From the NCBI GenBank assembly GCA_036172665.1, contig CM069878.1:23859501-23923500 (forward strand): a DNA stretch of 64,000 nucleotides, written 5' to 3'. A program made the translations under genes and the position numbers. The stretch's first letter is position 1. Each line of letters begins with the position of its first letter. Source of the stretch: Prosopocoilus inquinatus. Lineage: Eukaryota > Arthropoda > Insecta > Coleoptera > Lucanidae. Below the pieces are notes generated by a model. It was not told the DNA's origin, ran no database searches, and worked only from the letters and a program-made list of their open reading frames with translations. Positions 131 through 63,444 of the stretch are shown here, in pieces.

Positions 131-1175
131 CGTGGGCTGCTGGAAAATTTTCTAAAATCTGATAGGTCTAGAATTGTTATCGATCGGCTTCATTTGGCTT
201 TTGGAGATGAAGCACCATTAAGGAGCAGTTTTCCGAATTCCAGCGTGGACGTACCTCTCTCAGTGACGAATTTCGTGAAGGTCGTCCATCAACAGCTGTT
301 GTTGCCACTAATGTAGATGCTAAGCGTGAAATGCTTGAGCGAGATCGACATGTGACATACCGCGAGATTCAAGCTTTCTTACGCATTGACATGAAAGCAA
401 TACACCAGATTTTGCATGATTATTTGAACGTACGACAGCTTGGCAGTCGTTGGATCCCACACAATTTAACAGAAGCGCAAAAGCAGAGTCGTGTCAAATG
501 GTGCGAAAAAATGCTCAAGAAATTCAATGGAGGTCGTTCAAATTTAGTTTATAACATCGTCACTGGTGACGAAACGTGGATCTATTCGTACGAGCCAGAA
601 AGTAAACAACAATCTAACGTTTGGGTATTTCAAAATGAACCAAAACCAACAAAAGTTGTCCGTTCACGCAGTGCTGTGAAGCAAATGATTGCTTGTTACT
701 TTGGTTTAACTGGACAAGTAGCAACCGTGGCTTTAGAGTATCGAAAAACCGTGAATGCTGATTGGTATACTACAATATGTTTGCCGGAAGTCATCGATCA
801 AATAAGAAGAAACAATCGAAATCGACGAATTATTCTCCATAATGACAACGCCAACTCTCACTCAGCCCGTCAAACAGTTATTTTTTTGTCCAACAAAAAT
901 GTTGAATTAATGACTCATTGTCCATATTCACATGATTTATCACCTAATGATTTTTCTTTGTTCCCAAATATCAAAAAGCAGCGCTTGAAACATTCCGGAC
1001 ACTGGTTTCTGAGGTACCATCTTTAGAGTGGAAAACGTGCTTTATAAATTGGTTCGAGCATATGCAAAAGTGTATTGACGTCGAAGGCGAATACTTCGAA
1101 AAACAATGATACCGTTTACCAAATTTCATATGCGTTTTTTCATACCGTTTCCAGAAACTTTTCCAGCAGCCCACG
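131..1175 (+). mobile_element. mariner element, copy 1 (internally deleted)
   Basis: The ends are inverted repeats (left CGTGGGCTGCTGG, right CCAGCAGCCCACG) flanked by TA at 129-130 and 1176-1177, the mariner target duplication. Compared with copies at 17482 and 62172 it lacks the 5' leader and the first ~25 codons (join near 180), a few bases near 228 and about 36 bases near 980. It is non-autonomous. Same family as the three other copies in the window. Confidence 0.93.
331..1026 (+). pseudogene. mariner transposase remnant (DD34D)
   Basis: The reading frame carries the mariner signature WIPHNL, the first catalytic block GDETWIYSYEPE, the second HNDNANSHSA and the third YSHDLSPNDF, in mariner spacing (34 residues between the second and third Asp). 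The N-terminal helix-turn-helix region is deleted upstream and the C-terminus is shifted out of frame by a deletion near 980, so no functional enzyme is expected. Family: Tc1/mariner superfamily, a cut-and-paste transposase acting on its own terminal repeats in the nucleus. Confidence 0.9.
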
Positions 1176-5388: not shown

Positions 5389-5400
5389 AGTAAAATTTGT

Positions 5401-5813
5401 GAACATATAAAATAGCGACATCTTACTATCGCTTTTTGACCTAACATTGCAGTAGGATAGACAAATTGAAGCGGGATTTGCTCCTAATGAGTCCCCAATG
5501 CAAGACGGCCATGCTTGCTGTCAAGGCATAATGAAAGATTTTAGAAAAATTTTTGTGCAAATCGTTTTTGATTCTTCAGCAGAAGAAGCCCCAAGCAGGG
5601 CTGAAACTGCTGTCCAGAGGCTGCTCGAGGTTCTCACTGCAATCAAAAACGATTTGCACAAAAATTTTTCTAAAATCTTTCATTATGCCTTGACAGAAAG
5701 CATGGCCGCCTTGCATTGGGGACTCATTAGGAGCAAATCCCGCTTCAATTTGTCTATCCTACTGCAATGTTAGGTCAAAAAGCGATAGTAAGATGTCGCT
5801 ATTTTATATGTTC
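5401..5813. repeat. Large inverted repeat (173-bp arms) at the 5' end of the family A element
   Basis: Bases 5401-5573 are nearly the reverse complement of 5641-5813, with a 67-base loop holding the first, degenerate hammerhead motif. As RNA the transcript would form a very long hairpin. An inverted partial copy at the 5' end is also seen in the related insertion at 37181. Confidence 0.9.
5575..5619 (+). ncRNA. Degenerate hammerhead-like motif A1
   Basis: The second box GAAAC, helix II (AGCCC/GGGCT) and the GTC cleavage triplet before CAGAGG are kept. The first box reads CAGAAGA instead of CTGAAGA, and the 5' strand of helix I no longer matches. Probably inactive. Confidence 0.5.
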
Positions 5814-5887
5814 ATCATTCTTACATCGCATTTGCGAATAAATTGGGCAAGTCGTTTTTGGTCTGCACTGGAAATGTCGAGCTACGT

Positions 5888-5932
5888 CTCTGCTGAAGAA
5901 GCCCCAAGCAAGGCTGAAACAGCTGTCCAGAG
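5888..5932 (+). ncRNA. Type I hammerhead ribozyme A2, intact core
   Basis: Read 5' to 3': helix I strand CTCTG, box CTGAAGA, helix II AGCC...GGCT, box GAAA, helix III plus triplet CAGCTGTC, then helix I strand CAGAG. CTCTG and CAGAG pair over all five bases. Helix III (A-CAG/CUG-U) is self-complementary with no loop, so cleavage after C5927 would be favoured in a dimer or tandem transcript, as reported for minimal hammerheads in Penelope-like elements. Closing pair of helix II is A-U rather than the usual G-C. Confidence 0.75.
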
Positions 5933-6154
5933 GCTGCTCGAGAATTTTCATTATGCTTTGACAGCAAGCATGGCCGCCTTGCATGGGGGACTTATTAGGA
6001 GCAAATACCCCTTCAATTTGTCTATCCTACTGCAATGTCAGGTCAAAAAGCGATAGTAAAATGTCGCTATTTTATATGTTCATCATTCTTACATCGCAAT
6101 TGCGAATAAATTGGGCAAGTCGTTTTTGTTTGCAGTGGAAATGTCGAGCTACGT

Positions 6155-6199
6155 CTCTGCTGAAGAAGCCGCAAGCAGGGCTGAGACAGCTGTCCAGAG
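6155..6199 (+). ncRNA. Hammerhead-like motif A3 with mutated GAAA box
   Basis: Same layout as the motif 267 bp upstream, with CTCTG/CAGAG helix I, CTGAAGA and the GTC triplet kept. The second box reads GAGA instead of GAAA, a core change expected to abolish or strongly reduce cleavage. Confidence 0.65.
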
Positions 6200-6263
6200 G
6201 CTGCTCGAGGTTTTCACTGCAATCAAAAACGATTTGCACAAAATTTTTCTAAGTAAAATTTGT

Positions 6264-9703: not shown

Positions 9704-11375
9704 CAGGGTGTCCCAGAGCTCCGTAAAAGTTCCATAACTTTTTTGCTATTCCAGGTATCAATTCAATTTTTTTTTGTGTAATAGAGGCGCTTCCAATGCA
9801 CATTTTAAAATTATTTTCGTTTATATACAGGGTGCCCAAGTATTAGAAAAATATTAAAGTTACGTTTTTTTTAAATTGAAATACCCTATTTTGACTTCAT
9901 TTTTCGATTATACACTAAATTCTGCGTTAAATTTATTTTAGTCATTTGTACGTACCGATCATACTTTTTGATCTGAGTCAATTTGTTCTTGAAAATTCCC
10001 GGATGCACGGTTCCATTCAAAAATTCGTAACTTCTAAACCACTAAAGATAACGCAACCTATTTTTTTTTCAGTCAATGCCAAGGCTGTGGCCAATCTTTT
10101 GAGATCAAGCCGAGTCGTGAAGGGATGTTTCAAGGCTTACTACGATTTTTTGAATATGAATAGATAGTAAAAATTCCTTTTTTTTTTCAAATAGAACACC
10201 CTGTATATTTTCACACCATTCCATAAGCTTTTCAATGATATACAGTTTGTAGGGTCCAGTTCTGATATTCGACAAGTTATTGAGAAAATAGTAATTTTTA
10301 GATGTAAATATTTAATAAACAACAGAAAGTTTCTAGTAGTTTGGTGCCAAAATGAAAAGCGATTCATATTTTAAAACAACGTCGCATTAGTTACGGATAT
10401 ATTGTGTCAAAAATTGCGAATTTCATTGACTTAATATTTTATTCGCTGTGCATAATTACCCGCGATCGATCAGTAGGACTGCGACTCTAATTTCAAATTT
10501 ATCCTCCCAGTTCGCGTGAATTAGAAGTTCTATTGATGATTCATGAAAATTCTAACTTGAGTACTCAGGAAATCTCACGAGAAACTGATTTGTATATCAC
10601 TTTCAAATTTTAACTTGAGTACTCAGGAAATCTCAAAAAAAACAGACTTGTATATCGGTTTCTCCCGAGTACTCAAGTTCGAATTTTCATGAATCATCAA
10701 GAGAACTTCTAATTCACGCGAACTGGGAGGATAAATTTGAAATTAAATCCGCAGTCCTACTGATTGATCGCGGATAATCATGCATAGCGAATAAAATATT
10801 AAACCAATGAAATTCGCACTTTTTGACACAGTATATCCGTAACTGGTGCGATGTTGGTTGAAAATTTTAATCGCTTTTCATTTTAGTACCCAACTACTAG
10901 AAACTGGAGTTTTTATCATTTATAATTATACATATTCAAAAAATCGTAGCAAGCCTTGAAACATCCCTTTACGACTTGGTTTGATCTCGAATGATGACAG
11001 CCTTGGCATTGACTGAAAAAAAATCTGTTGCGTTATCTTTAATGGTTTAGAAGTTAGGAATTTCTGAATGGAATCTTGCATCCGGGAATTTTCAAGAAAA
11101 AATTGACTCACATTAAAAAGTATGATTGATACATAAAAATATAAATTTAACGCAGAATTTAGTGTAGAATCCACAAATAAAGTCAAAATGGGGTGTTTCA
11201 ATTTAAAAAAAGGCAACTTTAATATTTTTATAATACTTGGACACCCTGTATACAAACGAAAATAATTTGAAAATGTGCAATGAAAGTGCTTCTATTATAC
11301 AAAAAAAAAAAATTGAGTCGATACCTGGTATAGCAAGAAAGTTATGGAACTTTTACGGAGCTCTGGGGCACCCTG
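9704..11375. repeat. 1.67-kb foldback (inverted repeat) element
   Basis: The left end CAGGGTGTCCCAGAGCTCCG is mirrored at the right end (CGGAGCTCTGGGGCACCCTG), and the mirror symmetry continues inward for roughly 800 bp per arm, with point differences and small gaps. The centre near 10550-10680 contains a short direct duplication around ACTTGAGTACTCAGGAAATC. Flanks are ATATA and TATAT. Paired open frames in both arms are mirror images of each other and not genes. Arm divergence suggests an old insertion. Superfamily unknown. Confidence 0.85.
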
Positions 11376-12139: not shown

Positions 12140-13280
12140 ATGATGACGAAAAACAATTTATGCGTGCGAGTAGCAAGATTGGTCTTATTTATTGCTGGAA
12201 GAGATTCAGTATAAAATTATACATAGACCAAGGAAACAGATGTCGCACGTATGTAGAGATGCGTTAAGTAGAAATCCTCCACCATATGTGATGTTACTGG
12301 ATGAGTGTGAGAGCACGGTCCACATGAAATTAAAAAAAGCCCAGTATGAGATTGAGCTGTTAAAGAAGTTGCTCGATGATGTAGGAAATGTTACAGTCGA
12401 TAGATATGAAGTAAAGAATGGAATACTGTATAGAATTGTGAATGATGAGCATTTAATAGTGATACCTAATCGTTTGCAAATGCAGATAATAAGGCGCGCT
12501 CATGAGTGTAGACACTTTGGCATAAGTAAGACACAGACGAAAGTACGAAGAGACTATTGGTTTAATAATATGCGTGAAAAAGTCGAAATAGTAATCCATA
12601 ATTGCCTAGATTGCGTACTCGCTGAGAGAAAACATGGCAGACAAGAGGGACTGTTAAATTTAACAAGTAAAGGTAGTGTTCTACTGAACACATATCATGT
12701 AGATCATCTATACCCGATACCTTCAACTAAGAAGTCGTATTGTCATATTTTTGTGGTGATAGACTCCTTTAATAAATTTGGATGGTTGTATGCGACGCGT
12801 TCCACTGACACCACAGGGGTGCTGGACCGCTTATGAAAGCAGTCAATGGTGTTCGGAAATCCGCGACGAATAATTAGTGATCGCAGAATTGCCTTCACGT
12901 CCAATGTCTTTGCTGATTATTGCGAAACAGAAGATATACAACATATAAAGATTACCACAGCAGTGCCAAGAAGTAATGGACAAGTAGAGAGAGTCAACAG
13001 GACAATTATACCCTTGCTGACTAAACTGTTTGCTTCAAAACCTGAAGAGTAGTATAAACATCTGAACATAGTACAAAAATATTTAATTAAATGCCACCTC
13101 CCACCGAAACACTGGTAAAACGCCTTTTCAGTTAATGTTTGGTACCTACATGCGCCTGAAAAATGATCCGCAAGGGTAAAAATGTTTGAAGAACAAAAAA
13201 ATGAAATGCTTCGGAATGCGATAAAAAAATCGCTCAAATACAAGAAGAAAATCGACATAACTACAAGAAATAACATCTGG
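12140..13280 (+). pseudogene. Gypsy-type retrotransposon pol relic (RNase H end and integrase)
   Basis: The segment begins at the end of the RNase H domain (HRPRKQMSHVCRDALSR), frameshifted near 12195. The integrase zinc finger follows (His...His in HECRHFG, then CLDC). In the core, the first Asp lies in YHVDHL, the second in ISDRR and the Glu in GQVERVN, giving a D,D-35-E-type triad. A stop and frame change separate the first Asp from the other two (about 12836-12846). The C-terminus is frame-broken beyond 13052. Reverse transcriptase and protease are absent. An old, non-functional copy. Confidence 0.85.
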
Positions 13281-16250: not shown

Positions 16251-17481
16251 AACGTGCCCCCCGCCTTGTAATATCCGAGTACTTCCAAAAACTTAATCTT
16301 CAGGGCCGAGAAGCGGACAGAGTTTAGCATAGGTTCACTTCGTTTCTTCAGTTTGCGTTAGAGTCATGGCGACCCTGTTCTTTCCGTCTTTTCCGGGATG
16401 CAACTTAGTGACGCGGCCTAATTTTCAGCGAAGTGGAGCCGCGTTGTCATCTTTTAATAGTACCATTGACCCGATCTGGAGTTCTGCTTGAGATTCTTTC
16501 CAATTTACCCTTCGTTGCAACTCTGCGACGTATTCCTTTTGCTAATGGGACCAAGAATGCTGTTGGCAACAGTCTTCCTATCGGAATAACTTGCACATTT
16601 TGGGTCCGGAACGGAGATTAAAGTTCTTCCAATCAGAAAGTGAGCGGGGTTAAGGTGGTCAGGTCATCAGAAGTGGCTGATAGAGCAAACAGTGACCGGG
16701 AGTTTAAGGTACCTTCTACTTGCAATAGTACAGTATGCAGTTCCTCGTACGTGAGATGTGCATTTAATAAGACTCTCTTTATATGAGCCTTACTGGCCTT
16801 AACGCCAGCCTTCCACAACCCTCCAAAATGAGGGGAATGCGGTGTTATAAATTTCCATTCTGTACTCTCCTGACCACAGTGATCTGTAATGTTTCTTTTA
16901 TTTTCTCTTAAGAACCTGGCTAATTGTTTCAACTCAATACTAGCGGAAACAAAATTGGAACCATTATCTGAATAAATCTGATATGGTTTTCCTCGGCGTG
17001 CTACAAATCTTTTGAGAGCTATAATAAAGGAATTTTTGCTTAGGTCGGAAATTAGCTCTAAATGAACTGCCTTAGTGCTGAAGCAAAGGAAAAGTTCAAT
17101 GTAACACTTATTTAGCTTAGCGCCACGACCTTTGTGATTCTTTATAAACAACTCCCGTGACACTAAAAGGTTGGTTGGATACGAACTTCTGGAAATTGCC
17201 CCATAATTGGTTAGATAAACCTTGGTATGTTCTTAAAACAATTTAAGCATTCCCAAACAACAATTTTGCAAAGTCTTCTTCCTCCGATGGACCAAAATTC
17301 TTCCCTTGTTGATGCTAACAATTGCTGAGGACCGGCTTGTAATAATTTAAGATGCTCGTTTTTTATGATAAGGCGAGTTAGTCGATGTTTTTCGCGTTTC
17401 TTCTCAAAAGAAAATTTAGAGTTTTCTAGTGGTCAACTACTCTTAAAATCCCTTCTTTGTCTAGAAGCGGGTTTAAATGTA

Positions 17482-18774
17482 CGTGGGCTGCTGGAAAATT
17501 TTCTTGAATTTAGTAGGTATAGAATTGTCAGCGTTTATCAACTGTCATATTTGAAAAATTTAATGGTTCTCGCCTATAATTCTATTGACAGTTCCTATCC
17601 AAGTGAACTAGTTTCGTTTGTACAGCATTTGAGAAAAAGTAATTTTGTGTAAACATGGAAATCTCGTGTGAAAATTTTCGTGCCATGATTCTTTACGATT
17701 TCAAATGTGGTCTAACGCCGACACAATGCCTCGATCGGCTTCATTTGGCTTTTGGAGATGAAGCACCATCAAAGAGCAGTGTTTATAATTGGTTTGCCGA
17801 ATTCCAGCGCGGACGTACCTCTCTCAGTGTCGAATTTAGTGAAGGTCACCCACCAACATCTGTTCTTACCACTAATGTAGATGCTGTGCGTGAAATGCTT
17901 GAGCGAGATCGACATGTGACATACCGTGAGATTCAAGCATCCTTACGCATTGATATTGAAGCAGTACACCAGATTTTGCATGACCATTTGAACGTACGAA
18001 AGCTTTGCTGTCGTTGGATCCCACACAATTTAACAGAAGCGCAAAAGCAGGGTCGTGTCAAATGGTGCGAAGAAATGCTCAAGAAATTCAATGGAGGTCG
18101 ATCAAATTCAGTTTATAACATCGTTACTGGTGACGAAACGTGGATCTATTCGTACGAGCCAGAAAGAAAACATCAATCTACCGTTTGGGTATTTCAAAAT
18201 GAACCAAAACCAACAAAAGTTGTCCGTTCAGGCAGTGCTGCGAAGCAAATGATTGCTTGTTTCTTTGGTTTAACTGGACATGTAGGAGCCGTGGCTTTAG
18301 AGGATCGAAAAATCGTGAATGCTGATTGGTATACTACAATTTGTTTACCGGAAATCATCGATCAAATAAGAACAAACAATCAAAATCGACGAATTATTCT
18401 CCATCATGACAACGCCAGCTCTCACTCAGCCCGTCAAACAGTTGATTTTTTTGTCCAACAAAAATGTTGAATTAATGACTCATTGTCCATATTCACCTGA
18501 TTTATCACCTAATGATTTCTTTTTGTTTCCAAATATCAAAAATAAAATGCGTGGCGAGCGATTTTCATCGGCTGAAGCAGCGGTTGAAACATTCCGGACA
18601 CTGGTTTCTGAGGTACCATCTTTAGAGTGGAATACGTGCTCTAGAAATTGGTTCGAGCGTATACAAAAGTGTATTGACGTCAAAGGCGAATACTTCGAAA
18701 AACAATAATACCGTTTACCAAATTTCATATGCGTTTTTTCGTACCGTTTCCAGAAACTTTTCCAGCAGCCCACG
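17482..18774 (+). mobile_element. mariner element, copy 2 (full length, 1293 bp)
   Basis: Terminal repeats CGTGGGCTGCTGG/CCAGCAGCCCACG with TA at 17480-17481 and 18775-18776. Apart from one extra base it is complete, and it is the best reference for the family in the window. It sits inside BEL/Pao pol between the RNase H and integrase regions, so it is younger than that element. Confidence 0.95.
17655..18708 (+). pseudogene. mariner transposase, one frameshift from intact
   Basis: Starts at ATG 17655 (MEISCENFRAMI) with an N-terminal helix-turn-helix region, linker motif WIPHNL, catalytic blocks GDETWIYSYEPE, HHDNASSHSA and YSPDLSPNDF, and the C-terminal end GEYFEKQ at 18705. One extra T in a T run near 18446-18452 shifts the frame just after the second Asp, so the first frame ends at 18470 and the rest continues in a neighbouring frame from 18406. 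Corrected length would be about 350 residues, normal for mariner. Confidence 0.92.
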
Positions 18775-23245: not shown

Positions 23246-25483
23246 CGTGGGCTGCTGGAAAAGTTTCTGGAAACGGTATGAAAAAACGCATATGAAATTT
23301 GGTAAACGGTATCATTGTTTTTCGAAGTATTCGCCTTTGATGTCAATACACTTTTGCATATGCTCGAACCAATTTATAAAGCACGTTTTCCACTCTAAAG
23401 ATGCTACCTCAGAAACCAGTGTCCGGAATGTTTCAACCGCTGCTTCAGCCGACGAAAATCGCTCACCACGCATTTTATTTTTGATATTTGGGAACAAAAA
23501 GAAATCATTAGGTGATAAATTAGGTGAATATGGACAATGAGTCATTAATTCAACATTTTTGTTGGACAAGAAATCAACTGTTTGATGGGCTGAGTGAGAG
23601 CTGGCGTTGTCATGATGGAGAATAATTCGTCGATTTCGATTGTTTCTTTTTATTTGACCGATGACTTTCGGTAAACAAATTGTATTATACCAATCAGCAT
23701 TCACGGTTTTTCGATCCTTTAAAGTTACGGTTGCTACATGTCTAGTTAAACCAAAGAAACAAGCAATCATTTGCTTCGCAGCACTGCGTGAACGGACAAC
23801 TTTTGTTGGTTTTGGTTCATTTTGAAATACCCAAACGGTAGATTGTTGTTTACTTTCTGGCTCGTACGAATAGATCCACGTTTCGTCACCAGTAACGATG
23901 TTATAAACTAAATTTGAACGACCTCCATTGAATTTCTTGAGCATTCTTCGCACCATTTGACACGACCCAGCTTTTGCGCTTCTGTTAAATTGTGTGGGAT
24001 CCAACGACTGCAAAGCTTTCGTACGTTCAAATGATCATGCAAAATCCCAGGCAGCAAGCAGTCGTTTTTATCACGTCATTATTTGGTCAAAATTGGTCAA
24101 GGACGTCGAATGACCAGTTTTAAACGTATTTTTTTCGTAAAAATTTTGTTTAAAATTTGACGTTTATAAATCACGTGAATAGAACGTCACTTTAATAACA
24201 TAAATTTGACACTAATTTTAAAAATTTCGTTTCGATAAAAATTTAGTTATAGATTTGACAAGATATTGGATTTTGTAGGAAAGTATAAATTGTAAACACG
24301 ATTGAATTTATTAATTAATACCATTTTAATACATAAGAAATTTACTAGATTTCTATTACGGGGTATGCGACGCATGCGCCGACACTCGACATTGAGACTT
24401 TGTTCTTGCGTATCGTAATCGTAATGTCCGTGGTGCTTAAGTTTAGTGCGATTTGTTTTTAAACGTTAATTTATTACGTATTAGCTAACTAAAATATATT
24501 CTACTTGTAGTACGTGTACTGGCTTTAGGTATTTATTGTTTTAGTTATTAGCAAATTGTGTAAAGAAGGTGGGTATTGGTAACTCATATTTCATAACCTG
24601 TTATATTAATATTTTAACGGTCCTTGTGATAGGTCTTGGACACTTAATTCAATTGTTTTATTTCACTATAGAGTAGAATCAAACTGTTTAGTAATAGCTT
24701 TTTATGTTATTTTTATTTGGAATTTTAAAAAATATGTATGAATTTATTTGAAATATTATTTATTTATTGTTCGTAGGTATATGTATACATATGTACAGAT
24801 ATTTGAATAAAAATTAAAATATGATTTAGTTTCTTGGTTACTTATGCGTCATAGATAATACAATTAAAAATGACGTCAAAAATACACGACTATTTGACGT
24901 ACAAAAACGACGTCGCCGGGCTGTGACTTTGTCCGTCATTTTTACGTCTTTAATACGTCATTGAGTTTGGTCATTCGACGTAAACGATGACCAATTTTTG
25001 ACGTGAAAAAGACGACACCTTGCTGCTTGGGATCTGGTGTATTGCTTTCATGTCAATGCATAAGGATGCTTGAATCTCACGGTGTGTCACATGTCGATCT
25101 CACTCAATCATTTCACGCGCAGCATCTACATTAGTGGCAACAACAGATGTCAATGGTCGACCTTCACGAAATTCGGCAAACCAATTATAAACACTGCTCT
25201 TTAATGGTGCTTCATCTCCAAAAGTCAAATGAAGCCGATCGAGGCATTGCTTCGGCATTAGACCATATTTGAAATCGTAAAAAATCATAGCACGAAAATT
25301 TTCACACGAGATTTCCATATTTACACAAAATTACTTTTTCTCAAATGCTGTACAAACAAAACTAGTTCACTTGGATAGGAACTGTCAATAGAATTACAGG
25401 CGAGCAACGTCAAATTTTTCAAATATGACAACGCTAACAATTATAGACCTACTAGATTCCAGAAAAATTTCCAGCGGCATACG
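23246..25483 (-). pseudogene. mariner element, copy 3 (minus strand), split by a 986-bp insertion
   Basis: TA at 23244-23245 and 25484-25485; the end near 23246 is a canonical terminal repeat, the end near 25483 is mutated (CCAGCGGCATACG). The transposase runs from ATG 25318 (MEISCENFRAMIFYDFKYGL), lacks about 12 codons near residue 50, is interrupted at 25031-24046, and has a frameshift near 23975. The main C-terminal frame 24013-23312 keeps GDETWIYSYEPE, HHDNASSHSAH, YSPNLSPNDF and the GEYFEKQ end. Net length without the insert is about 1250 bp. Confidence 0.93.
24046..25031. mobile_element. 986-bp non-autonomous DNA transposon with CCCARGCAGCAAG ends
   Basis: Left CCCAGGCAGCAAGCAGTCG and the reverse complement of the right end, CCCAAGCAGCAAGGTGTCG, are inverted repeats extending inward through repeated TTGGTCA and GACGT motifs for about 80 bp. 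Because the mariner target is known, the duplication can be read as AT (24044-24045 and 25032-25033). CCCAG-type ends with a 2-bp AT duplication recall ISL2EU elements, a guess. No transposase frame is visible. Confidence 0.8.
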
Positions 25484-27417: not shown

Positions 27418-28758
27418 CCGTGCCTTCAATTGAATTCCTCATTAAAGTAAGTTGTGATTTTTTTTATGAAGTTGGCGACACAATTCTAGAGATAACAATT
27501 GTCATTAACTGTCAGTACTGATCATAACATCAAATAAAAACACAACATTAAAGTTTAAAGTAGATGCTCAAAGTGCTCTCCTTCAGCTTGAATACATAAG
27601 CGTACTCTGCGTTTCATGTTTTCAAACCCGTTTGCTAAGTGTTCGGGGGTTATGTTAGCACACACATCTGTAATGCCCGCACGAATTTCTTCGATTGTGT
27701 GACGCGTAGTTCTAAAAACTGTGTTTTTCATGTGCGGATAAATGAAGTAATCCATAATTGTGAGATCCGGAGACCTTGCAGGAAAATTCACAATCCGATT
27801 ATCAAAAAACTGCTGCAGGAAAGTCATTGTTTGATGAGCTGTGTGGGCAGTAGCATTGTCTTGCTGAAAAAACTCTTCTATAGGTTCATCATCATGTAGT
27901 TGATTAATGAAAGGTTCTAATAACTCATTTCGGTATCTTTCAGCAGTTACTGAGTCGTTAAAAAATATTGGTGCGATGATACGCCTTCTTGACGCTGCTA
28001 GCCAAACACCAATTTTTAATGGATGTAATGGAGTTTCCACAAATTCATGGGGATTTTCTGCTGTCCGTATTCTCATATTCTGTTTATTTAAATACCCTGA
28101 GAGATGAAACCAGGCCTCATTGGAAAAGAAACACTTGTCAAGAATGTCGTCGTTGTTTAAGTTATCAAGAAACCACTGACAATATTCTGTTCTTCTGTGA
28201 AAATCTACTGGCCTGAGTTTGTGGACTGCTTGAATCTTATATGGATAAAGCTTTAAGCCTTTTTTAAGAATAGTGTGACATGTTCCCACTGATAGCTGAA
28301 CTTCTTGTGAAAGTTTCGCAATAGATTTCTTGGAAGAGTGTTCCATTCGATCCCGAACATCTTCAATGCAGGCTGCAGTCCTTTTCTTAGCTGCTCCGCT
28401 CCCTGTTTTGCAACCAAGTGATCCTATTTCACGAAATTTAAGAACACAAGCATGAATATGTTTAACTAGCTGTTCATAAGTAATAGCAAAATTAGGAAAC
28501 TGCTGTCGAAACTTCTGTATACACTGATTAATTGAATAAACTAACTGTCCATTTTCTATTCTACCGGTTTGAAAATAACTTTCAACAATAAATATTTTCT
28601 GCTGTAATTCTAACATTTTGAATTAATTAAAAATACAAAGTGTCAATTTTTCATTTGTTTAATTAAATAATTGAACAGCTATCAGTGCTGCAAATCTGAG
28701 GACAACAAAACAGTGAAATCATAGCCCACTTTAATGAGGAATTCAATTGAAGGCACGG
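27418..28758 (-). mobile_element. Complete Tc1/mariner-superfamily element (DUF4817 type), 1341 bp
   Basis: Ends are ~31-bp near-perfect inverted repeats beginning CCGTGCCTTCAATTGAATTC, flanked by TA at 27416-27417 and 28759-28760. It contains one uninterrupted transposase frame on the minus strand. Good conservation of the two ends indicates a young insertion. Confidence 0.93.
27555..28616 (-). CDS. Transposase, Tc1/mariner superfamily with DUF4817-type N-terminus; first catalytic Asp replaced by Asn
   Basis: A 353-codon intact frame from ATG 28616, about 140 bases inside the element end. Residues ~1-60 resemble the DUF4817 helical domain of insect transposases, followed by a helix-turn-helix region (~85-130: SIAKLSQEVQLSVGTCHTIL). 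The endonuclease core shows FSNEAWFHLSGY (normally FSDEAWFHL), QQDNATAHTA and PARSPDLTIMDYF. About 35 residues separate the last two Asp residues. The codon for the first catalytic Asp reads AAT (Asn), so the protein should bind but not cut its ends. The C-terminus ends GEHFEHLL. The enzyme would act in the nucleus on the element's own terminal repeats. Confidence 0.9.
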   Translation of the reverse strand: MLELQQKIFIVESYFQTGRIENGQLVYSINQCIQKFRQQFPNFAITYEQLVKHIHACVLKFREIGSLGCKTGSGAAKKRTAACIEDVRDRMEHSSKKSIAKLSQEVQLSVGTCHTILKKGLKLYPYKIQAVHKLRPVDFHRRTEYCQWFLDNLNNDDILDKCFFSNEAWFHLSGYLNKQNMRIRTAENPHEFVETPLHPLKIGVWLAASRRRIIAPIFFNDSVTAERYRNELLEPFINQLHDDEPIEEFFQQDNATAHTAHQTMTFLQQFFDNRIVNFPARSPDLTIMDYFIYPHMKNTVFRTTRHTIEEIRAGITDVCANITPEHLANGFENMKRRVRLCIQAEGEHFEHLL

Positions 28759-37180: not shown

Positions 37181-37516
37181 CTTTTTAGAAAAATTTTGTG
37201 CAAATCGTTCTTGATTGCAGTGAAAACCTTGAGCAGCCTCTGTACAGCTGTTTCAGCCCTGCTTGGGGCTTCTTCAGCAGAGACGTAGCTCGACATTCCC
37301 ACTGCAAACAAAAACGACTTGTCCAATTTATTCGCAATTGCGATGTAAGGGTGATGAACAGATAAAATAGCGACATCTTACTATCGCTTTTTGACCTGAT
37401 ATTGCAGTAGGATAGACAAATTGAAGAGGGATTTGCTCCTAACAATTCCGCTTCAATTTGTCTATCCTACTGCAATGTCAGGTCAAAAAGCGATAGTAAG
37501 ATGTCGCTATTTTATC
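37181..37516 (-). mobile_element. Hammerhead-bearing element, family A, single unit with inverted tail
   Basis: 336 bp bounded by 11-bp duplications TGTTGATAATA (37170-37180, 37517-37527). Read on the minus strand it starts with an inverted tail (arms 37451-37520 and 37357-37426, ~70 bp each) followed by one unit carrying an intact hammerhead and ending in GCACAAAATTTTTCTAAAA. This mirrors the architecture of the tandem element at 5401. Confidence 0.8.
37238..37282 (-). ncRNA. Type I hammerhead ribozyme A4, intact core
   Basis: Minus strand: CTCTG, CTGAAGA, helix II AGCCCC...GGGCT, GAAA, CAGCTGTA, CAGAG. Five-base helix I and a self-complementary helix III are present. The cleavage triplet is GTA, allowed under the NUH rule. 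Confidence 0.75.
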
Positions 37517-37668
37517 TGTTGATAATATTATTATTCACTTTGCCAAAAAAATCTAGGAATATAATTTTGTACCGATTTTGTGATAATTTTTTGCAATTAT
37601 TTTGAATTTTTTCATTAAATGTTTATTTAAAACTGTAGAACCATTTAAAATTTAAACCTATTTTCAAG

Positions 37669-38594: not shown

Positions 38595-39009
38595 TTAGTA
38601 CGTGTAACCCGATTCAGGGCTGAATCCTGGTCTCCTAGCTCCTGCAGAAGGTGATCCTGGGAAACCTGCGCCCGGAAATCCGCCGCCACTCCCAGCACCA
38701 CCTGCACCTCCAGCTCCTCCATCTCCGCCTGGATATCCACCACCACCACCACCACCACCGCCTGCGGCTTCTTCAGCTGCGTTCTGCTCCAGAGACCTAA
38801 GGATTTCTTCTGGAATTGGAGGTGGCGTTGGTAAATGAGCTCCCTGAGGTACAAATCCGTTTTCATCGGCGGTATATGTCAACTGTATCTGTTGACCATC
38901 GGGGGCGGTATACGAAAATGAACCACTAACTGATTCAGCTTCAGCATCTGAACCGGCGTTTTTAAGTTGGCCTTGTTCTTCAGCTTTAATGCCATTACCA
39001 GTTTCATAG
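38595..39009 (-). CDS. Exon 4 of the RR-1 cuticular protein gene
   Basis: Begins after TTTTCAG at 39010 and ends at TAA 38597-38595. It encodes most of the chitin-binding region from YETGNG onward and the Gly-rich tail ([27 protein letters not shown]). The open frame running on to 39173 is intron read-through. An AATAAA on the minus strand near 38032-38038 is a possible but distant poly(A) signal. Confidence 0.93.
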
Positions 39010-42000
39010 CTGAAAATAGAATTTATTAGTATTGGTAAACAGAAAGCGTCACTTAATTTTTTATATAGGTCCTCTGGCACTGTTTTGGGATTGGAACGTA
39101 CAAACTTTATTACGTTAAAACCATTTTCATGAAAGAATTCTCTAGATTCGTCAAAAAAAATGAAAACTTCCAAATTTTTCTTTTATCCTGACAGGGTAAC
39201 TCCCTCCAGGCGCCATATGAATAATTATTTTATAAAACATGAATTTTGCAATTAGGTATTACAACTGAATGGATTTTAATAATTCAAGAGTTATGTTTAG
39301 ATAGAATTCAAACAAAACGTTTTCAAAATGGAATGGAAAATATAATATTTTTCAAGAAACAACAAAAGTAAAATGCTGTTACTTCATTTGTAAAGCTCAA
39401 TAAACTTGAACAGAATTTCCCTGCATTAAATTAAAACTTAATTCTTTGAAGGAGACAAAAGATTAATTTCTAATTTCTTCTCCGTACGTACGCGCTTTTG
39501 TTCTCTTCCAATAATTAAAAAAAAAATAACTATTACGCCATGGCCATCAACCGAATTGGAAATTGTGAAACCACCGAATAGCCTAGCATAAATCTTTTTC
39601 ATCAAGGATTAGGTAACGTAATAACGGAGGAATTTGCAATTTTTTGAAATAAGGTCACGTGTTTCGATTTGCAATATTCTGCTATCAATTTAAATCTAAA
39701 GAAAACAACAATACTTTAGGAATAAATACATTATGTAAATATGTGAAAGTATTTTAATATTACCTACTTACATTACAAACATAAGGTGTAGGACTTACCT
39801 AAATCTGTAGCTACCGTCCCCGTAATTTTCATTTTCGTACTTCAAAATGGGTATTTGTGGGCCTGAAGGTCCGCCGGCGCCACCAGGGCGACCTCCTCCG
39901 CCACCTGGACCACCAGCGCCTCCAGGAAAACCAGGACCTCCAGCACCTCCAGGAAAGCCAGGACCTCCAGCACCTCCAGGAAAGCCAGGACCTCCAGCAC
40001 CTCCAGGAAAGCCAGGACCTCCAGCTCCTCCAGGTCCACCCGGAGCTCCGTAAGTGCCGCCCGGTCGACGACCACCACCGCCACCGCCACCGCCACCACC
40101 TGTAAAATTTGTTTGTGAAAATAACCATCCAACCGTTTTTTTAATGTCTTTTTCACCAGTGGTTCTCAGACACTCATTCGAAGTTCTGTTCCGACATTAG
40201 TTGCATAAGTTTTTTTTAAGGGGACTTTCACTTTTGCATGTAATGTTGTGCTTAAAGGATTTACGATCGTGTTTGTTGCGTTTGAAACCATAATTACAAT
40301 TTAATTTACCGTCTACAAAAGAACATGAAAATCGATCTGCATCTACATTAAATATGATAAATACAAATATACCATTCACTCATTAAAATTAATTATACAT
40401 TACGAGGGTAATAATAAATATTTTAGTACAGATTCTTCTTCCTAAAATTATTTTCTTTCTAACTAAAAGTTTTATTTACATAATGAGTAGTTTAAACAGC
40501 GACGTCCTACGAACACTGTAAAATTGCAATTAACATTCTACGTTTCGCTATCGCTCGACAGCTTCGTCAGGAGTGAAAAAATATTTTTTTTTAAAACTAT
40601 TTTCTTACATATTTCATTGAATAAGAGTTGACTTCAGTTAAAAGCTTTACAGTCCTAAATATTTTTGATAATTTTTGACATACGGGTTCTTGAATTAAAC
40701 TAAGGTTATACAAACACTAAACACTATGAGAACAATTGGTGCGAATAAGTGAACATTGAAATTTACGAAGTACTAACTGCGGCGTGGCATTACGTTCTAA
40801 ATATGGAAAAGCCCTGCACAGAGCTAGAGCGTACAAAGGCCTGTTCCCTCTCTTTACGCGTTACGTGCCTATATCGCTTGCTATTTAATCCAATTCCTAT
40901 GTTCTCTCTTTAAAACAACGACCGATATAAGAATAAAATTAGTTTGTAATATGTCAAAATTATATCGAAGAAATGTGAACGAAGAAAACAAATTTCCGTC
41001 TTTTGTGAAACAAAAATTAAAAACATTAACTCTCTTAACTGAAAAATCTGTATGCCCAGATCAAATTTAAAATAAGCCCTTAGCCGTTTAGCAATTAATT
41101 TGCTAAATCGTTCTTAGAATAAATAAGCTTTTTATTTCTATATTATTTTATAGCTACGATTGATTTCCTTTAATAAATAAATAATTTGAAGGCCAAGTGC
41201 TTTTTCAAGTGAAAATTCGTTGAAACCAAAGCAACTTATTTAGTAAGTAAATTAAAGAAGAGTCTAAAAAAATTTTTAAGTGCATTACTTTCCAACATTA
41301 TTATCGTTTTTGGCAAAACAAATTTAAGAACTGTCATTGGAACACACGAGAACTTTTTCTAAAACTGTTATTTTCTTAACAAAACAAAATCATCTAATCT
41401 TATTTCATGTATTAAACATGTATTACAACAAATCTTTTTCCAAATAAAATTTAGTGAAACAAAAGAAAAATAAAGAGAAACTCAAAGCAAAAAATTCAGC
41501 ATTGTTAACTGTTCAAATGGAATAACATTTAAATTCATAAAAATTTCTGACGATTTTTTTATGTATTCGCAATCAGACAATCATAATAGAAATAATTTCC
41601 TTGAATCTGTCAACCTAAAAGTAATTATGAGTTACATTCGTCAATTGTAAACTCATGTACTATCGCTTACTTCTTCTTAGATTTGATAATAAACAAAATA
41701 TAAGTCCATATACAATACTTTTTCAAAACCGAAATTTAATATTACTCTCTGTTCAAAATTAAAATAGAGAAATTTGCAATTTTATTAGAACCTAGAATAT
41801 AAATCAGTTCAATATTAGTGTATAAACCTTCATTATATGTACTGTACCAGTAATATACCATTTAGTCAAGTTTTTTTTTTAATTAAAAAAATTAATATTT
41901 CGAAAACCCTTGACTATTGGATTTGGGTTTATTAGATTTTTTTCTTGTTTTGTACTGTATTACGTGCCAAAGTGTGTTAAGTATTTTTTTTTTATTAGCA

Positions 42001-50976: not shown

Positions 50977-51167
50977 TTTATCTTTTAAAGAAGGTAAATT
51001 CCCTAGCTGCTTAAAAATTGGTAAAATAACTCCGATATGTAAATTCAAAGACCAAGAAAAAATTGAAAACTATAGACCTTTAACAATAACTTCTATATTT
51101 TGAAAAGTTTTTGAATACGCCTTCCTAGATAGGTCACTTTCTTTTCTTTCTAAACAAAATATTTTAT

Positions 51168-51421
51168 AAAATTTTGTTGCAAATCGTTTTTGATTGCAGT
51201 GAAAACCTCGAGCAGCCTCTGCGCAGCTGTTTCAGCCCTGTTTGGGGCTTCATCAGCAGAGACGTAGCTCGACATTCCGACTGCAGACCAAAAACGCCTT
51301 GTCTGATTTATTCGCAATTGCGATGTAATAGTGATGAACAAATAAAACAACGAAATCAACGATCGCTTTCTGACCTGTCAGGTCAGAAAGCGATCGTAGG
51401 ATGTCGCTGTGTTTATCTGTT
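51168..51421 (-). mobile_element. Hammerhead-bearing element, family A, in the LINE relic
   Basis: 254 bp bounded by perfect 13-bp duplications CAAAATATTTTAT (51155-51167, 51422-51434); removing it rejoins the LINE frame (LSKQNI / LCLDQRGFF). It contains the family A unit on the minus strand plus a short palindrome, GATCGCTTTCTGACCTG and its mirror (about 51361-51395). Confidence 0.85.
51217..51261 (-). ncRNA. Hammerhead-like motif A5: canonical CUGAUGA box, mutated cleavage triplet
   Basis: Minus strand: CTCTG, CTGATGA, AGCCC...GGGCT, GAAA, CAGCTGCG, CAGAG. The first box is the classical form and helix I is intact, but the triplet that should be NUH reads GCG, removing the cleavage site. 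Confidence 0.65.
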
Positions 51422-51975
51422 CAAAATATTTTATGTCTAGATCAACGTGGGTTCTTCAAAGGAAAATCAACTTCTACTGCCATTACTACCTTTTACTTGC
51501 AAATTTTACAATATATTGAAGTGAGAGAATGCCCAGTCGAAATCTTTTGCTATTTAAGCAGAGCATTTGACTGTGTTAACCATGAATCACTGCTGAATAT
51601 GCTAAATAAACACAGTCCCACTTAAATGGATCATGTATCTGATAAGAAACAGTACGTTGCTATTAATAACAATAACTCTCGGTTAGAAAGTAGTAATGTT
51701 GGTGTTCCACAAGGCTCCATTTTGGGACCTATTCTACTTGTATTGAATATTAATGACTTAAATTACTTACAGGGACGTGCACCTTACCACAGCTCAAAAG
51801 GGGGTCACGAAACCTGAAAGTTTGGGTAACTGAACTAAGTGGTTTTTCTACTTTCCTCTTTTTTTAAGGTGAAACAGATCGATCAGCTTTTAACGTGTGA
51901 AGACAGGCACAAGGCTGTACAAAATCTTCGGAAGTTTTTTTATTTCTTCGTATTTTTTGCAACATATCATTTATC

Positions 51976-52175
51976 AAAAATTTTGTGCAAATCGTTTTTT
52001 ATTGCAATGAAAACCTCGAGCAGCCTCTGTACAGCTGTTTCCGCCCTGCTTGGGGCTTCTTGAGCATGGCCGCCTTGCATGGGGGACTTATTAGGAGCAA
52101 ATCCCGCTTCAATTTGTCTATCCTACTGCAATGTCAGGTCAAAAAGCGATTGGAAGATGTCGCTATTTTATCTGT
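51976..52175 (-). mobile_element. Hammerhead-bearing element, family A, deleted copy in the LINE relic
   Basis: 200 bp bounded by perfect 12-bp duplications ATATCATTTATC (51964-51975, 52176-52187). On the minus strand it starts ACAGATAAAATAGCGACATC and ends GCACAAAATTTTT like the other insertions; an internal deletion joins ATGGCCGCC-type sequence directly to the hammerhead. Confidence 0.82.
52025..52061 (-). ncRNA. Truncated hammerhead-like motif A6
   Basis: Helix III, GTA triplet, CAGAG and most of helix II remain, but the deletion removed the 5' helix I strand and the start of the CTGAAGA box, and helix II has a mismatch (GGGCG). Inactive. Confidence 0.5.
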
Positions 52176-52187
52176 ATATCATTTATC

Positions 52188-52990: not shown

Positions 52991-53454
52991 ACACTACTGT
53001 CGAAAACTTTTAAAACGAAAAGCAATAAATCTGTTGGAATTTGAGCCTTATTGAAATAGCCGGTCTGAATTTAGAACCTTCTGCATTCGAGCCTCCCCGT
53101 TTCTCTCTCCCTCTCTTGACCAGGGGATGAGCAGGGTCATAAAATTCAATCACGAGAGCAGGGGTAATCTGTTAAGCATTGAATAAGGAAATTCCAAGTA
53201 ATGAGAACTGCGTAATTTGTAATGTATTATGAAAGTAATTATTTTAGTTTGTTAATTGTTTTTAGTTTAATGTTAATAAAAATAATACCTACCCGGGATT
53301 TGTTATATTCTGTTTTTTTTTTTATGTTTCAATTTAGATTTTCATATTTAAATTGTTAGCAAAATTGGAAGATATTAAATCAAAATGTTTTAAACTGCCA
53401 TAAGTTCGGAATGTATTTAAATTTAAATTTACGTTTAAACGTGTTATTATTGAA

Positions 53455-53508
53455 CAGATAAAATAGCGACATCTTACGATCGCTTTTTGACCTGACATTG
53501 CAGTATTG
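53455..53508. repeat. Fragment of the family A hammerhead element
   Basis: ACAGATAAAATAGCGACATC and TTTTTGACCTGACATTGCAG match the 5' end of the family A insertions; the remainder, including the ribozyme, is absent. Confidence 0.75.
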
Positions 53509-58209: not shown

Positions 58210-60535
58210 ATAGCGGTCGTGGCAGCAGGAGATTCAAATGTGTAAAAGTGCACAAACTAAGGGGTGCCAAAAACATTTAATTTAACTTAAGATCTGACTT
58301 TTTGGTCGTACGAAGATCGAAAAAAGGTACCTAACTCAGATACAGAATTTGGAAATTAGGTTTTTATTTTCTCAATAAAATTAAATAAAATACTAAAATT
58401 AATATTATGATCCTGTATTTTATAAAAAAATTATATAACGCAAATTATATTACCTATGTTTTTCACTTTCTTCTAAATCGTTGCGTGACATCAGTCGTTC
58501 AGTCGATGCAGTAACGTTTACTTAGAACACTCTCAACAAGTTTGAGTGTGGCAAGACAGAGATTGGCACCGGCTGAACGTACCCAATGACTTCCATTGAA
58601 ACAGTTTTTGATATCACGATGAGTTCTTTGTAAAGGCAAAGTAAAAAAATTATTATTTACAAACGCTGATTTTAACTTTCGACATATTTTTTTCTTAGTT
58701 TATCATTAGCCCATTGACACTGTCTAGGTGCACTTGAAAGAGCCGCGTTCAAATCTAATTCAACTTATCCACTGAACAGACAGACACGCTCTTAGGGCAC
58801 TAAGTTTCGTACACTACCATTCGCTGAATGTCCACGAAATAAGTCAGCAACTCAGCTGCTCCAGTTATCTCAACGTGACCATTGTGTCAGCGATAGTGAA
58901 AAGAACCCTATTGAGATAAATATTTCTATTTATGCCTAAAAAGCAAATGTTTAGGTGCAAAAAAAGGCAAATTAGGTAAAAAAGTCGCAGTAGGGGAAGA
59001 ACATTGAAAGAAGGTAATCTAGATGAAATAAACTTTGCGATATTGCGCTTTCTGTGCCAAAATATAAAAAAAATTGAAATAATTGAACCTTACTATACGA
59101 AATTTATTTATTTAACACACACATATTTGTTTTAGAAAATAACCCTTCCACTGCGAAAAGAAATAGAATAGAAACTACACAGGGTGTCTCAAACCCTCTG
59201 TCTTTAAATGAAACTGTAAGTTCCTTGTTACATAAGAGATTAATTGTCCAAATCTGAATTTTTTTGCCCAAAAATGAAAAACTATGACAAGCGAGCGCAG
59301 TTCCTTTGTTTTGAAACCTCTGCTTGGTTTACGACTTGTTTCGGCAATTTATTCCGATAAAAGCAATAAACCGCAATAAAACTTTTTATTTACGTTTAGA
59401 AGAACTCGGTCAAGGTCTTGTAGTATACGAATACGAATCCGACTACCTAATCTTCGTTAGATTTTTGCTGAAGTAATTAAACATCTTCGTACGCCAGTTT
59501 ATAACTGCGTTGAAAATGCGTGAAATTATTTTTTAATTATCGCTGTAATAGCTGCCGAATAAGTATTGCAAGAGCAGAAACTAGTCCAATTCTAAAAACG
59601 GAAAACAAGAATTGGAGTATGATACGATGAAAAATTTAAATAAATTAGATTGCCTGTACCACAATAATCTACGGGTTCAAAATAAGTGATTGAATAACTT
59701 CCCTAGCTCTCAATCGAACTATTTTATTAATTGTTTACATTCCAACACAAAACACATATTTTTATGACGATAATATTGAACCTGAATTTCTGCGTCGGCT
59801 TAAACCATAAAGACATAAAAGCTCTCGCCTAGTGCAGACGTTTATTTATTTTAGTAATCAACATTGTAAGTTGATTTGGCAATTTACAAATTACTATGAT
59901 GTAAGAATTTCCACTTTTTCGATCGTTTTTAGATTGCTTTTTTTTTATTTAACTGTTAAAGTACGGATTAGCACAAAACTAATCATCAATTAATGTAACA
60001 CGCTTTAAACTATTAAGAACTTACCTAGTTACGAAATTTATCTACTTTTAAAATTAACAAAAAAGACGATACTTGATTTGCCTTAAGTACAATAACAGTG
60101 CCTTAGATCATGTTCTGCGTTTTTATGACTTTTTATGGCCTCGAACGTTGAAAACCAAGCTCCGCCCGAACATTTAAGCTGCATTCAGCGACCCTCAAAC
60201 AATTTCTATGAAAATGAAAAATAATTTTTATCTGCGTTATTACTGCTATCTGACCAATAGTTGTATAACAAATTTTGCTTCCTTTCTTGACCACTATTTG
60301 TGGTTTCAATTAAACACATAGATTTAGAGACACGCTATGTACAATACGATTAACAATTAACAATTACTGTATATAGGTTTGCGTTTGAAATATTTCAAAT
60401 ATTTATGACTAGAATATCAACAATAACTTCCTGGCAGCGCGTTGCATTAATTTATTTGTTACTTGGGTTCTTATAGGATCTTATGTTTTTAATATAAATA
60501 AAGTAGCTGATTAACTGTTTATTTTACGAATAGTT
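58210..60535. other. No gene recognised
   Basis: A lone CACAGGGTGTCTCAAAC at 59178 resembles the ends of the foldback at 9704, but no partner end was seen. Otherwise AT-rich and unassigned. Confidence 0.35.
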
Positions 60536-60539
60536 AAAC

Positions 60540-60668
60540 CAGCGACACCCTACGATAGCTTTTTGACCTAACATTGCATAAGGATTAACAAATTGAAGCG
60601 GGTTTGCTACATAATAAGTCATCCCATGCAAGGCGGCTATGCTTGCTGTCAAAGCATAATGAAAGTTT
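60540..60668. repeat. Partial family A hammerhead element (ribozyme absent)
   Basis: CAGCGACACCCTACGATAGC through AAATTGAAGCGGG and CATGCTTGCTGTCAAAGCAT to AATGAAAG follow the family A unit (compare 5411-5535), diverged. It abuts LINE sequence on the right, consistent with insertion into a LINE like the copies near 51 kb. Confidence 0.7.
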
Positions 60669-60679
60669 TTCTTTAACTT

Positions 60680-62171: not shown

Positions 62172-63444
62172 CGTGGGCTGCTGGAAAGTTTTCTGGAATC
62201 TAGTAGGTCTAGAATTGTTAGCGTTTATGAACTGTCATATTTGAAAAATTTGACATTTTTCACCTATAATTCTATTGACAGTTCCTATCCAAGTGAATTA
62301 GTCTTGCTTGTACAGCATTTGAGAAAAAGTAATTTTGTGTAAACATGGAAATCTCGCGTGAAAATTTTAGTGCCATGATTTTTTACGATTTCGAATGCGG
62401 TCTAATGCCAAAACAATGCCTCGATCGGCTTCATTTAGCTTTTGGAGATGAAGCACCATCAAAGAGCAGTGTTTATAATTGTTTTGCCGAATTCCAGCGT
62501 GGACGTACCTCTCTTAGTGACGAATTTTGTAAAGCTCGTCCATCAACATCTGCTGTTGCCTCTAATGTAGATGCTGTGCATGAAATGCTTGAGCGAGAAC
62601 GACATGAGACATACCGTGAGATTCAAGCATCCTTACGCATTGACATGAAAGCAATACACCAGATTTTGCATGATCATGAGAACGTACGAAAGCTTTGCAG
62701 TCGTTGGATCCCACACAATTTAACAGAAGGGCAAAAGCAGGGTCGTGTCAAATGTTGCGAAGAAATGCTCAAGAAATCCAAAGGAGGTCATTCAAGTTTA
62801 GTTTGTAACATCGTTACTGGTGACGAAACGTGGATCTATTCGTACGAACCAGAAAGTAAACAACAATCTACCGTTTGGGTATTTCAAAATGAACCAAAAC
62901 CAACAAAAGTTGTCCGTTTATGCAGTGCCGCGAAGCAAATGATTGCTTGTTTCTTTTATTTAACTGGAAATGTAGCAACCGTGGCTTTAGAGGATCGAAA
63001 AACTGTGAATGCTGATTGGTATACTACAATTTGTTTGCCGGAAGTCATCGATCAAATAAGAAGAAACAATCGAAATCGACGAATTATTTTCCTTCATGAC
63101 AACGTCAGCTCTCACTCAGCCCGTCCAACACAAATGTTGAATTAATGACTCATTGGCCATATTCGCCTGATTTATCACCTAATGATTTCTTTTTGTTCCC
63201 GAATATCAAAAAAAAAATGCGTGGTGAGCGATTTTCGTCGGCTGAAGCAGCGGATGAAACATTCCGGACACTGGTTTCTGAGGTACCATCTTTAGAGTGG
63301 AAAACGTGCTTTAGAAATTGGTTCGAGTATGTGCAAAAGTGTATTGATATCAAAGGCGAATACTTCGAAAAACAATGATACCGTTTACCAAATTTCATAT
63401 GCGTTTTTTCATATCGTTTCCAGAAACTTTTCCAGCAGCCCACG
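62172..63444 (+). mobile_element. mariner element, copy 4 (1273 bp)
   Basis: Canonical terminal repeats with TA at 62170-62171 and 63445-63446. Full length except for a 19-bp deletion in the transposase. It stands alone, not nested in another recognised element. Confidence 0.95.
62345..63378 (+). pseudogene. mariner transposase broken by a 19-bp deletion
   Basis: From ATG 62345 (MEISRENFSAMIFYDFECGL) the frame keeps the helix-turn-helix region, WIPHNL, GDETWIYSYEPE and LHDNVSSHSA, then the deletion near 63127-63133 shifts frame and it stops at 63145. The third catalytic region (YSPDLSPNDF) and the GEYFEKQ end are read in another frame to 63378. Confidence 0.92.

Follow-up and report, generated by a model that had tools for sequence, protein, structure and literature searches.

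The window (the whole stretch of 64 000 nucleotides analysed here) contains at 5401-6251 an insertion that is best read, from its sequence features, as one copy of a non-autonomous non-LTR retrozyme; copies of this family lie head-to-head between two fixed kinds of end, denoted A and B. We consider it probable (roughly 0.7) that the retrozyme is copied by the machinery of a Penelope-like element, through paired priming, in which two positions on a single RNA circle are used. The head-to-head structure with its two fixed ends is the most informative feature of the insertion. The preliminary description of this DNA missed it, along with the layout in common with a resident Penelope-like element.

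The 851 bp of the insertion are non-coding and are bounded by a 12-bp direct repeat, AGTAAAATTTGT, at 5389-5400 and 6252-6263, which bears out the insertion and target duplication claimed earlier. Unit positions are numbered from the base 3' of the predicted ribozyme cut. The features of the insertion are as follows.

5389-5400, target site duplication, left copy AGTAAAATTTGT (flank comparison)
5401-5573, minus strand, retrozyme unit, first arm; its sense 3' end faces outward at site A (unit position ~199)
5573-5576, head-to-head joint at the centre, where unit positions 27 and 273 adjoin
5575-6251, plus strand, second arm; its sense 3' end faces outward at site B (unit position ~58-60)
5576-5619, plus strand, first hammerhead-like copy, box 1 changed (CAGAAGA; sequence reading)
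5877-5882, plus strand, outer helix I, 5' side UCGAGC; pairs with 5936-5941
5888-5932, plus strand, type I hammerhead, core intact, helix I included; cut predicted at 5927/5928
5936-5941, plus strand, outer helix I, 3' side GCUCGA
6155-6199, plus strand, third hammerhead copy, second box changed (GAGA)
6252-6263, target site duplication, right copy (flank comparison)

To the left of the joint the unit runs on the minus strand, and the stretches 5390-5573 and 5641-5824 are 97% complementary. The preliminary description had taken the insertion for a tandem array; same-strand copies are indeed present, including three hammerhead-like copies at the reported spacing of 313 and 267 nt, but the structure as a whole is inverted and head-to-head. 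The plus-strand arm consists of a partial, a full-length, a shortened and an outer partial unit. The 267-nt unit in this arm differs from the usual ~312-nt form by a deletion of ~45 nt that includes site B. No frame of at least 100 aa lies within the 851 bp, so the insertion is without an autonomous Penelope-like frame carrying RVT and GIY-YIG domains. Rfam miRNA-precursor matches in the insertion and at 37393-37485 were rejected as large inverted repeats rather than miRNA genes.

The middle hammerhead (5888-5932) has the elements first ascribed to it: the boxes CUGAAGA and GAAA, helix II (AGCC/GGCU), a GUC preceding the predicted cut at 5927/5928 and a 5-bp helix I (CUCUG/CAGAG). Across an internal loop follows an outer helix (UCGAGC/GCUCGA). 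The two outer motifs, which had been counted as hammerheads as well, are broken: CAGAAGA replaces CUGAAGA in the first, where the changed box sits at the inversion junction, and GAGA replaces GAAA in the third. Since only one of the three cores is intact, this copy could not make, by itself, the two cuts that free a monomer. Retrozyme was the right class: the non-coding unit of ~312 nt carries a type I hammerhead, occurs in tandem, has thousands of copies genome-wide and comes with target duplications. The suggested processing of this copy to 270-313-nt monomers is not supported. Dimeric cleavage, which had been argued from a helix III with a 0-nt loop, is not required either, because helix III can close as two pairs (A-U and C-G) under a palindromic AGCU tetraloop, an arrangement resembling that of invertebrate hammerheads (PMC7229834).

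A loose type I descriptor matched two sites on both strands of the whole window (5888-5932, and one with its CUGA at 37277 on the minus strand) and nothing in 60 dinucleotide shuffles. The proposed Rfam check gave a divided answer: when 95 bp were scanned, RF00163 matched over its full model at 5887-5933 (E 9e-5 for 95 scanned bases), but its score of 25.7 bits is below the gathering cut-off of 34. The window gave nothing at gathering level, scans of 1.1 kb and of the whole window gave no hammerhead at an E value of 10 or less, and five other genome loci, three with the unit and two with a Penelope-like element, gave no gathering-level hammerhead. Conservation of the boxes is weak: across 40 loci they had 0.044 changed loci per site and the rest of the unit 0.058, and 35 of 312 rotations gave a value as low; the 12 core letters showed 0.023. 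An 82-nt segment containing the intact hammerhead is predicted to fold at minimum energy with a GCUG-CAGC pairing across the core, which replaces the active fold.

That the same unit might occur genome-wide had been raised earlier and is confirmed. In the 650 Mb of genome analysed, a 40-nt core was found at 17,739 places with at most 3 mismatches (0 for the reversed-pattern control), and a 35-nt core has 11,198 exact occurrences. The usual unit is 312 nt long and forms tandem arrays of up to ~10 units. Six copies or fragments of the family lie within the window, the insertion at 5401-6251 and the following five.

37183-37526, head-to-head copy with B and A ends, duplication TGTTGATAATA, intact minus-strand hammerhead
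51157-51423, head-to-head copy with B and A ends, duplication CAAAATATTTTAT
51976-52183, head-to-head copy with B and A ends, duplication ATATCATTTATC
53451-53505, minus strand, retrozyme fragment with an A end
60535-60670, minus strand, diverged retrozyme fragment, end near site A (unit position 191)

The family has an intact type I core, tandem units in the ~170-400-nt range and duplications of more than 4 bp, three of the marks of a metazoan non-LTR retrozyme. An ordinary tandem satellite, spread by DNA recombination and carrying the hammerhead incidentally, would also have units in tandem, and the weak ribozyme conservation signal within the family fits it. We regard this as scarcely credible, because the copies are dispersed, with target duplications and fixed ends, and because an intact hammerhead is present where the shuffles have none.

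The ends were analysed in two samples. The first comprises the window and L009-L047, the best 40 of 2041 candidates by score against the window's unit, and is thus not random; the second consists of 20 loci from the first 23 clusters of exact cores along C1. With site B taken as unit positions 49-76 and site A as 186-215, 60 of 131 outward sense 3' ends (both samples; first = best 40 of 2041) are at B, 64 at A and 7 elsewhere. The two kinds of end are paired: 34 of the 36 insertions typed at both ends in the first sample (best 40 of 2041) have one A and one B, the like-ended exceptions being one A/A and one B/B; 15 of the 51 clusters in this sample were not typed at both ends (single-armed, edge-cut or with an end outside A and B). 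The second sample gave 13 A/B of 14, the remaining one A/A, with 8 of 22 clusters not typed at both ends. At L073 (949-1545), also in the second sample, the ends are 186/200, in effect A/A, within a perfect 12-bp duplication. All four two-armed copies of the window are A/B, one of which (5401-6251) is already in the first-sample count. Opposite-strand neighbours within 2 kb, among 100 cores listed, are head-to-head in 21 cases and tail-to-tail in none.

Target duplications enclose most of these structures. An exact duplication of at least 10 bp flanks 25 of 35 A/B insertions of the first sample (best 40 of 2041; wider B limits of 45-80 were used for this count) versus 19 of 1184 mismatched flank pairs, and is absent from the other 10; the second sample has one in 11 of 13. 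The most frequent length is 12 bp, and the duplicated stretches are 83% A+T (first sample, best 40 of 2041).

The arms of an insertion differ from each other by 2.8% on average, versus 4.6% between insertions (34 pairs; best 40 of 2041). This comparison took 34 of 43 pairs, those with at least 60 shared columns. A rare variant is common to both arms in 11 of the 34 pairs (best 40 of 2041), where 500 shuffles averaged 0.72 such pairs and never exceeded 4; the other 23 pairs of this sample (best 40 of 2041) have none in common. Gene conversion between arms could also be a source of shared variants. These data bear on whether the two arms arose in separate events, either as independent opposite insertions at one site or by later inversion or recombination of neighbours. 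A few insertions with mixed units or complex arm chains (L009, L011 and L032) would suit such a history. We nevertheless find it very improbable, since in the best 40 of 2041 candidates a single duplication encloses the whole two-armed structure in 25 of 35 cases, one A is joined to one B in 34 of 36, and rare variants are shared in 11 of 34 pairs.

The arms meet as if at random points of the unit. For 61 joints the median circular distance between inner ends is 78, and only 5 fall within 10 nt (4.1 if uniform); simple joints in the first sample (best 40 of 2041) have a 1-6 base overlap of the arms in 21 of 35 cases. This scatter largely refutes, for the retrozyme family, a snap-back in which the cDNA or antisense strand, primed at one end, folds and copies itself. 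Self-priming on an antisense template was proposed for rotifer Penelope elements, in which joint palindromes are known (PMC3846280), and such a step would account for the inversion and for variants common to both arms. However, it predicts inner ends that coincide and outer ends that are alike, whereas the joints are scattered and 34 of 36 pairs (best 40 of 2041) are unlike; we give it very little weight.

The length of the arms constrains the template. The ribozyme cut site is crossed by 107 of 142 arms and 67 of 142 are longer than one unit, the longest measuring 3138 nt; a linear monomer therefore cannot serve as template, but a circle or an uncut multimer can. The uncut multimer is the nearest rival to the circle: paired priming would then take place on multimeric transcripts, and the ribozyme would be unnecessary for insertion. 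In some insertions (window, L009 and L011) unit variants are mixed within or between arms, which calls for template switching or multimeric RNA, and mixed variants in one arm (same loci) speak for the multimer. So does the long array at L042 (2549-5301), where unit variants repeat every three units, a pattern suggestive of a trimeric template or of subsequent tandem duplication. The ~10 near-identical 312-nt units at L010 (2036-5173) combine two variants in mosaic fashion (unit positions 22 and 143), which is not explained by one faithfully copied circle. Furthermore, ribozyme mutants of a lizard element left insertion in vitro unaffected (PMC11167929). Against the multimer, arms of up to 3138 nt are long relative to most insertions, and among 100 exact cores listed only 10 same-strand neighbours lie within 2 kb (69 clusters), so that long multimeric transcripts would have to stem from few copies; published retrozymes, moreover, make abundant circles (PMC7229834). 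We judge the uncut multimer unlikely, although it deserves to be taken seriously, and retain the circle.

The genome harbours a resident Penelope-like element with RVT_1 and GIY-YIG domains within one frame. A PDB search with this frame gave no match. Among the best 150 of 2232 GIY-YIG candidates, all 46 two-hit clusters are head-to-head; 55 further clusters have one hit and one has three. Six copies, picked for short arms before their ends were seen, were fetched, and each has one short end, one end with the same 38-nt extension, and flanking duplications of 11-15 bp. The element carries a minimal hammerhead-like motif with its predicted cut 48 nt before the short end; site B of the retrozyme lies ~60 nt after its own predicted cut. 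In its sequence the retrozyme has the insertion layout of the Penelope type: head-to-head, two kinds of end and a target duplication.

Comparison of the retrozyme unit with the Penelope terminal region yielded no likeness above shuffles, so recognition by the Penelope protein would have to rest on layout alone. This is a point in favour of a LINE or another reverse transcriptase as the mover of the retrozyme. L1 twin priming likewise produces inversions. Nonetheless, the head-to-head layout, the two kinds of end and the ~12-bp duplications are common to the retrozyme and the Penelope-like element, and we think a different enzyme improbable.

The family resembles the metazoan non-LTR retrozymes (Cervera and de la Pena 2020, PMC7229834), which have type I hammerheads, tandem units of ~170-400 nt, low GC and duplications of more than 4 bp, in genomes that also hold Penelope-like elements with minimal hammerheads. 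Penelope-like elements were suggested there, in 2020, as movers of animal retrozymes. Head-to-head inserts with two fixed ends distinguish the present family from the description in the main text of that paper, where the words inverted and head-to-head are absent. A literature search, with subscription journals mostly outside it, returned no paper on retrozymes with head-to-head, or with inverted and target-primed reverse transcription.

Another close match is to GIY-YIG Penelope-like elements (PMC11167929, PMC3846280), which share the head-to-head arrangement, an optional tail at one end, AT-rich targets, duplications and two internal starts of reverse transcription, with a hammerhead in PMC11167929; Penelope itself is known to leave tailed head-to-head inserts (PMC3846280). 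The retrozyme unit differs in that it codes for nothing and has its ends ~139 nt apart on the unit, versus 38 in the Penelope-like element. The purified lizard protein cuts both target strands and extends them; synthesis begins at two sites within the RNA, and the tail corresponds to the segment between these sites (PMC11167929). The same authors saw no strand difference in start site in vitro, whereas the genomic retrozyme copies mostly have one A and one B end per insertion. Plant LTR retrozymes (PMC4918200) are also non-autonomous, carry hammerheads and spread via circular RNA, but they differ in having type III ribozymes, LTRs, 4-bp duplications and Gypsy machinery (PMC7229834). The hammerhead repeats of newt, schistosome and cave cricket (PMC7229834), hammerheads in animal repetitive DNA, are comparable by the presence of a ribozyme.

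The RNA was folded as a circle for one sequence, a single L010 unit, by energy rules only. The predicted rod has an energy of -109 kcal/mol, where 100 mononucleotide shuffles give -72 (sd 5.9), and holds A and B together in one large open loop; the unpaired probability is 0.86 around B and 0.71 around A, compared with 0.35 overall. The ribozyme core is paired otherwise than in its active form. The stretch from B to A has no clear excess of stability over shuffles (z -1.47). In the Penelope region from ribozyme to tail the ends flank a stem-loop, but the stability of this fold does not exceed that of shuffles (z 0.12) and it was set aside. The argument from folding is for these reasons limited to the openness of A and B.

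We propose the following route. Copies with at least two same-strand units would be transcribed, and the type I hammerhead would cut the multimer at unit length (~312 nt). The resulting RNAs would be circularised and take a rod shape, as modelled on the published retrozyme pathway. A host Penelope-like protein, with its reverse transcriptase and GIY-YIG domains, would cut an AT-rich target with a ~12-nt stagger. The two target strands would then prime cDNA on the RNA at A and B, both of which the predicted rod exposes in its one large open loop. Each cDNA would run inward, perhaps circling the RNA several times and so giving tandem units, and the joining of the two cDNAs at a random point would leave the arms head-to-head, with A at one end of the insertion, B at the other and ~12 bp of target duplicated. 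We infer the cleavage, the circularity, the use of the Penelope protein and the priming of both strands in one event; the motif, the ends with their pairing, the duplications, the scattered joints and the variants shared by arms in part of the insertions are read from the DNA. It is about an even chance, in our estimate, that two Penelope-type proteins, coupled to each other, work on the same RNA circle, whose fold unites two fixed priming sites so that the cDNAs roll toward each other.

If this is correct, the retrozyme would retain just the RNA side of the reaction: a ribozyme and, at the foot of a folded domain, an open loop that holds both start sites. The retrozyme would thereby lay bare the origin of the head-to-head, tailed Penelope-like structure. 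Paired priming would also be a distinct route for a reverse transcriptase, with RNA written into DNA off both cut strands. The questions touched are which enzyme moves animal retrozymes and how Penelope-like elements come to be head-to-head with a tail at one end. The thousands of short copies would form a natural record of single events, each with its start sites, pairing, joint and duplication.

Further features were found in the window, where the domain scan covered seven of the nine long frames. Related mariner-transposase-like frames lie at 211-1026 (+), 17643-18470 (+), 23312-24034 (-) and 62333-63145 (+). The first has Transposase_1 and DDE_3 matches below cut-offs and the second matches a Mos1 HTH domain; the mariner likeness of the other two was judged by eye alone. 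A long frame at 27555-28622 (-) has a DDE_3 transposase match below cut-off. Retroelement integrase pieces are located at 12174-12836 (+) and 16633-17232 (-), with Integrase_H2C2 and, below cut-off, rve. An inverted repeat at 10530-10703, with an Rfam miRNA-precursor score below cut-off on both strands, is perhaps another mobile-element palindrome. The frame at 38595-39182 (-) encodes an insect cuticle protein domain (Chitin_bind_4) with a glycine-rich tail.
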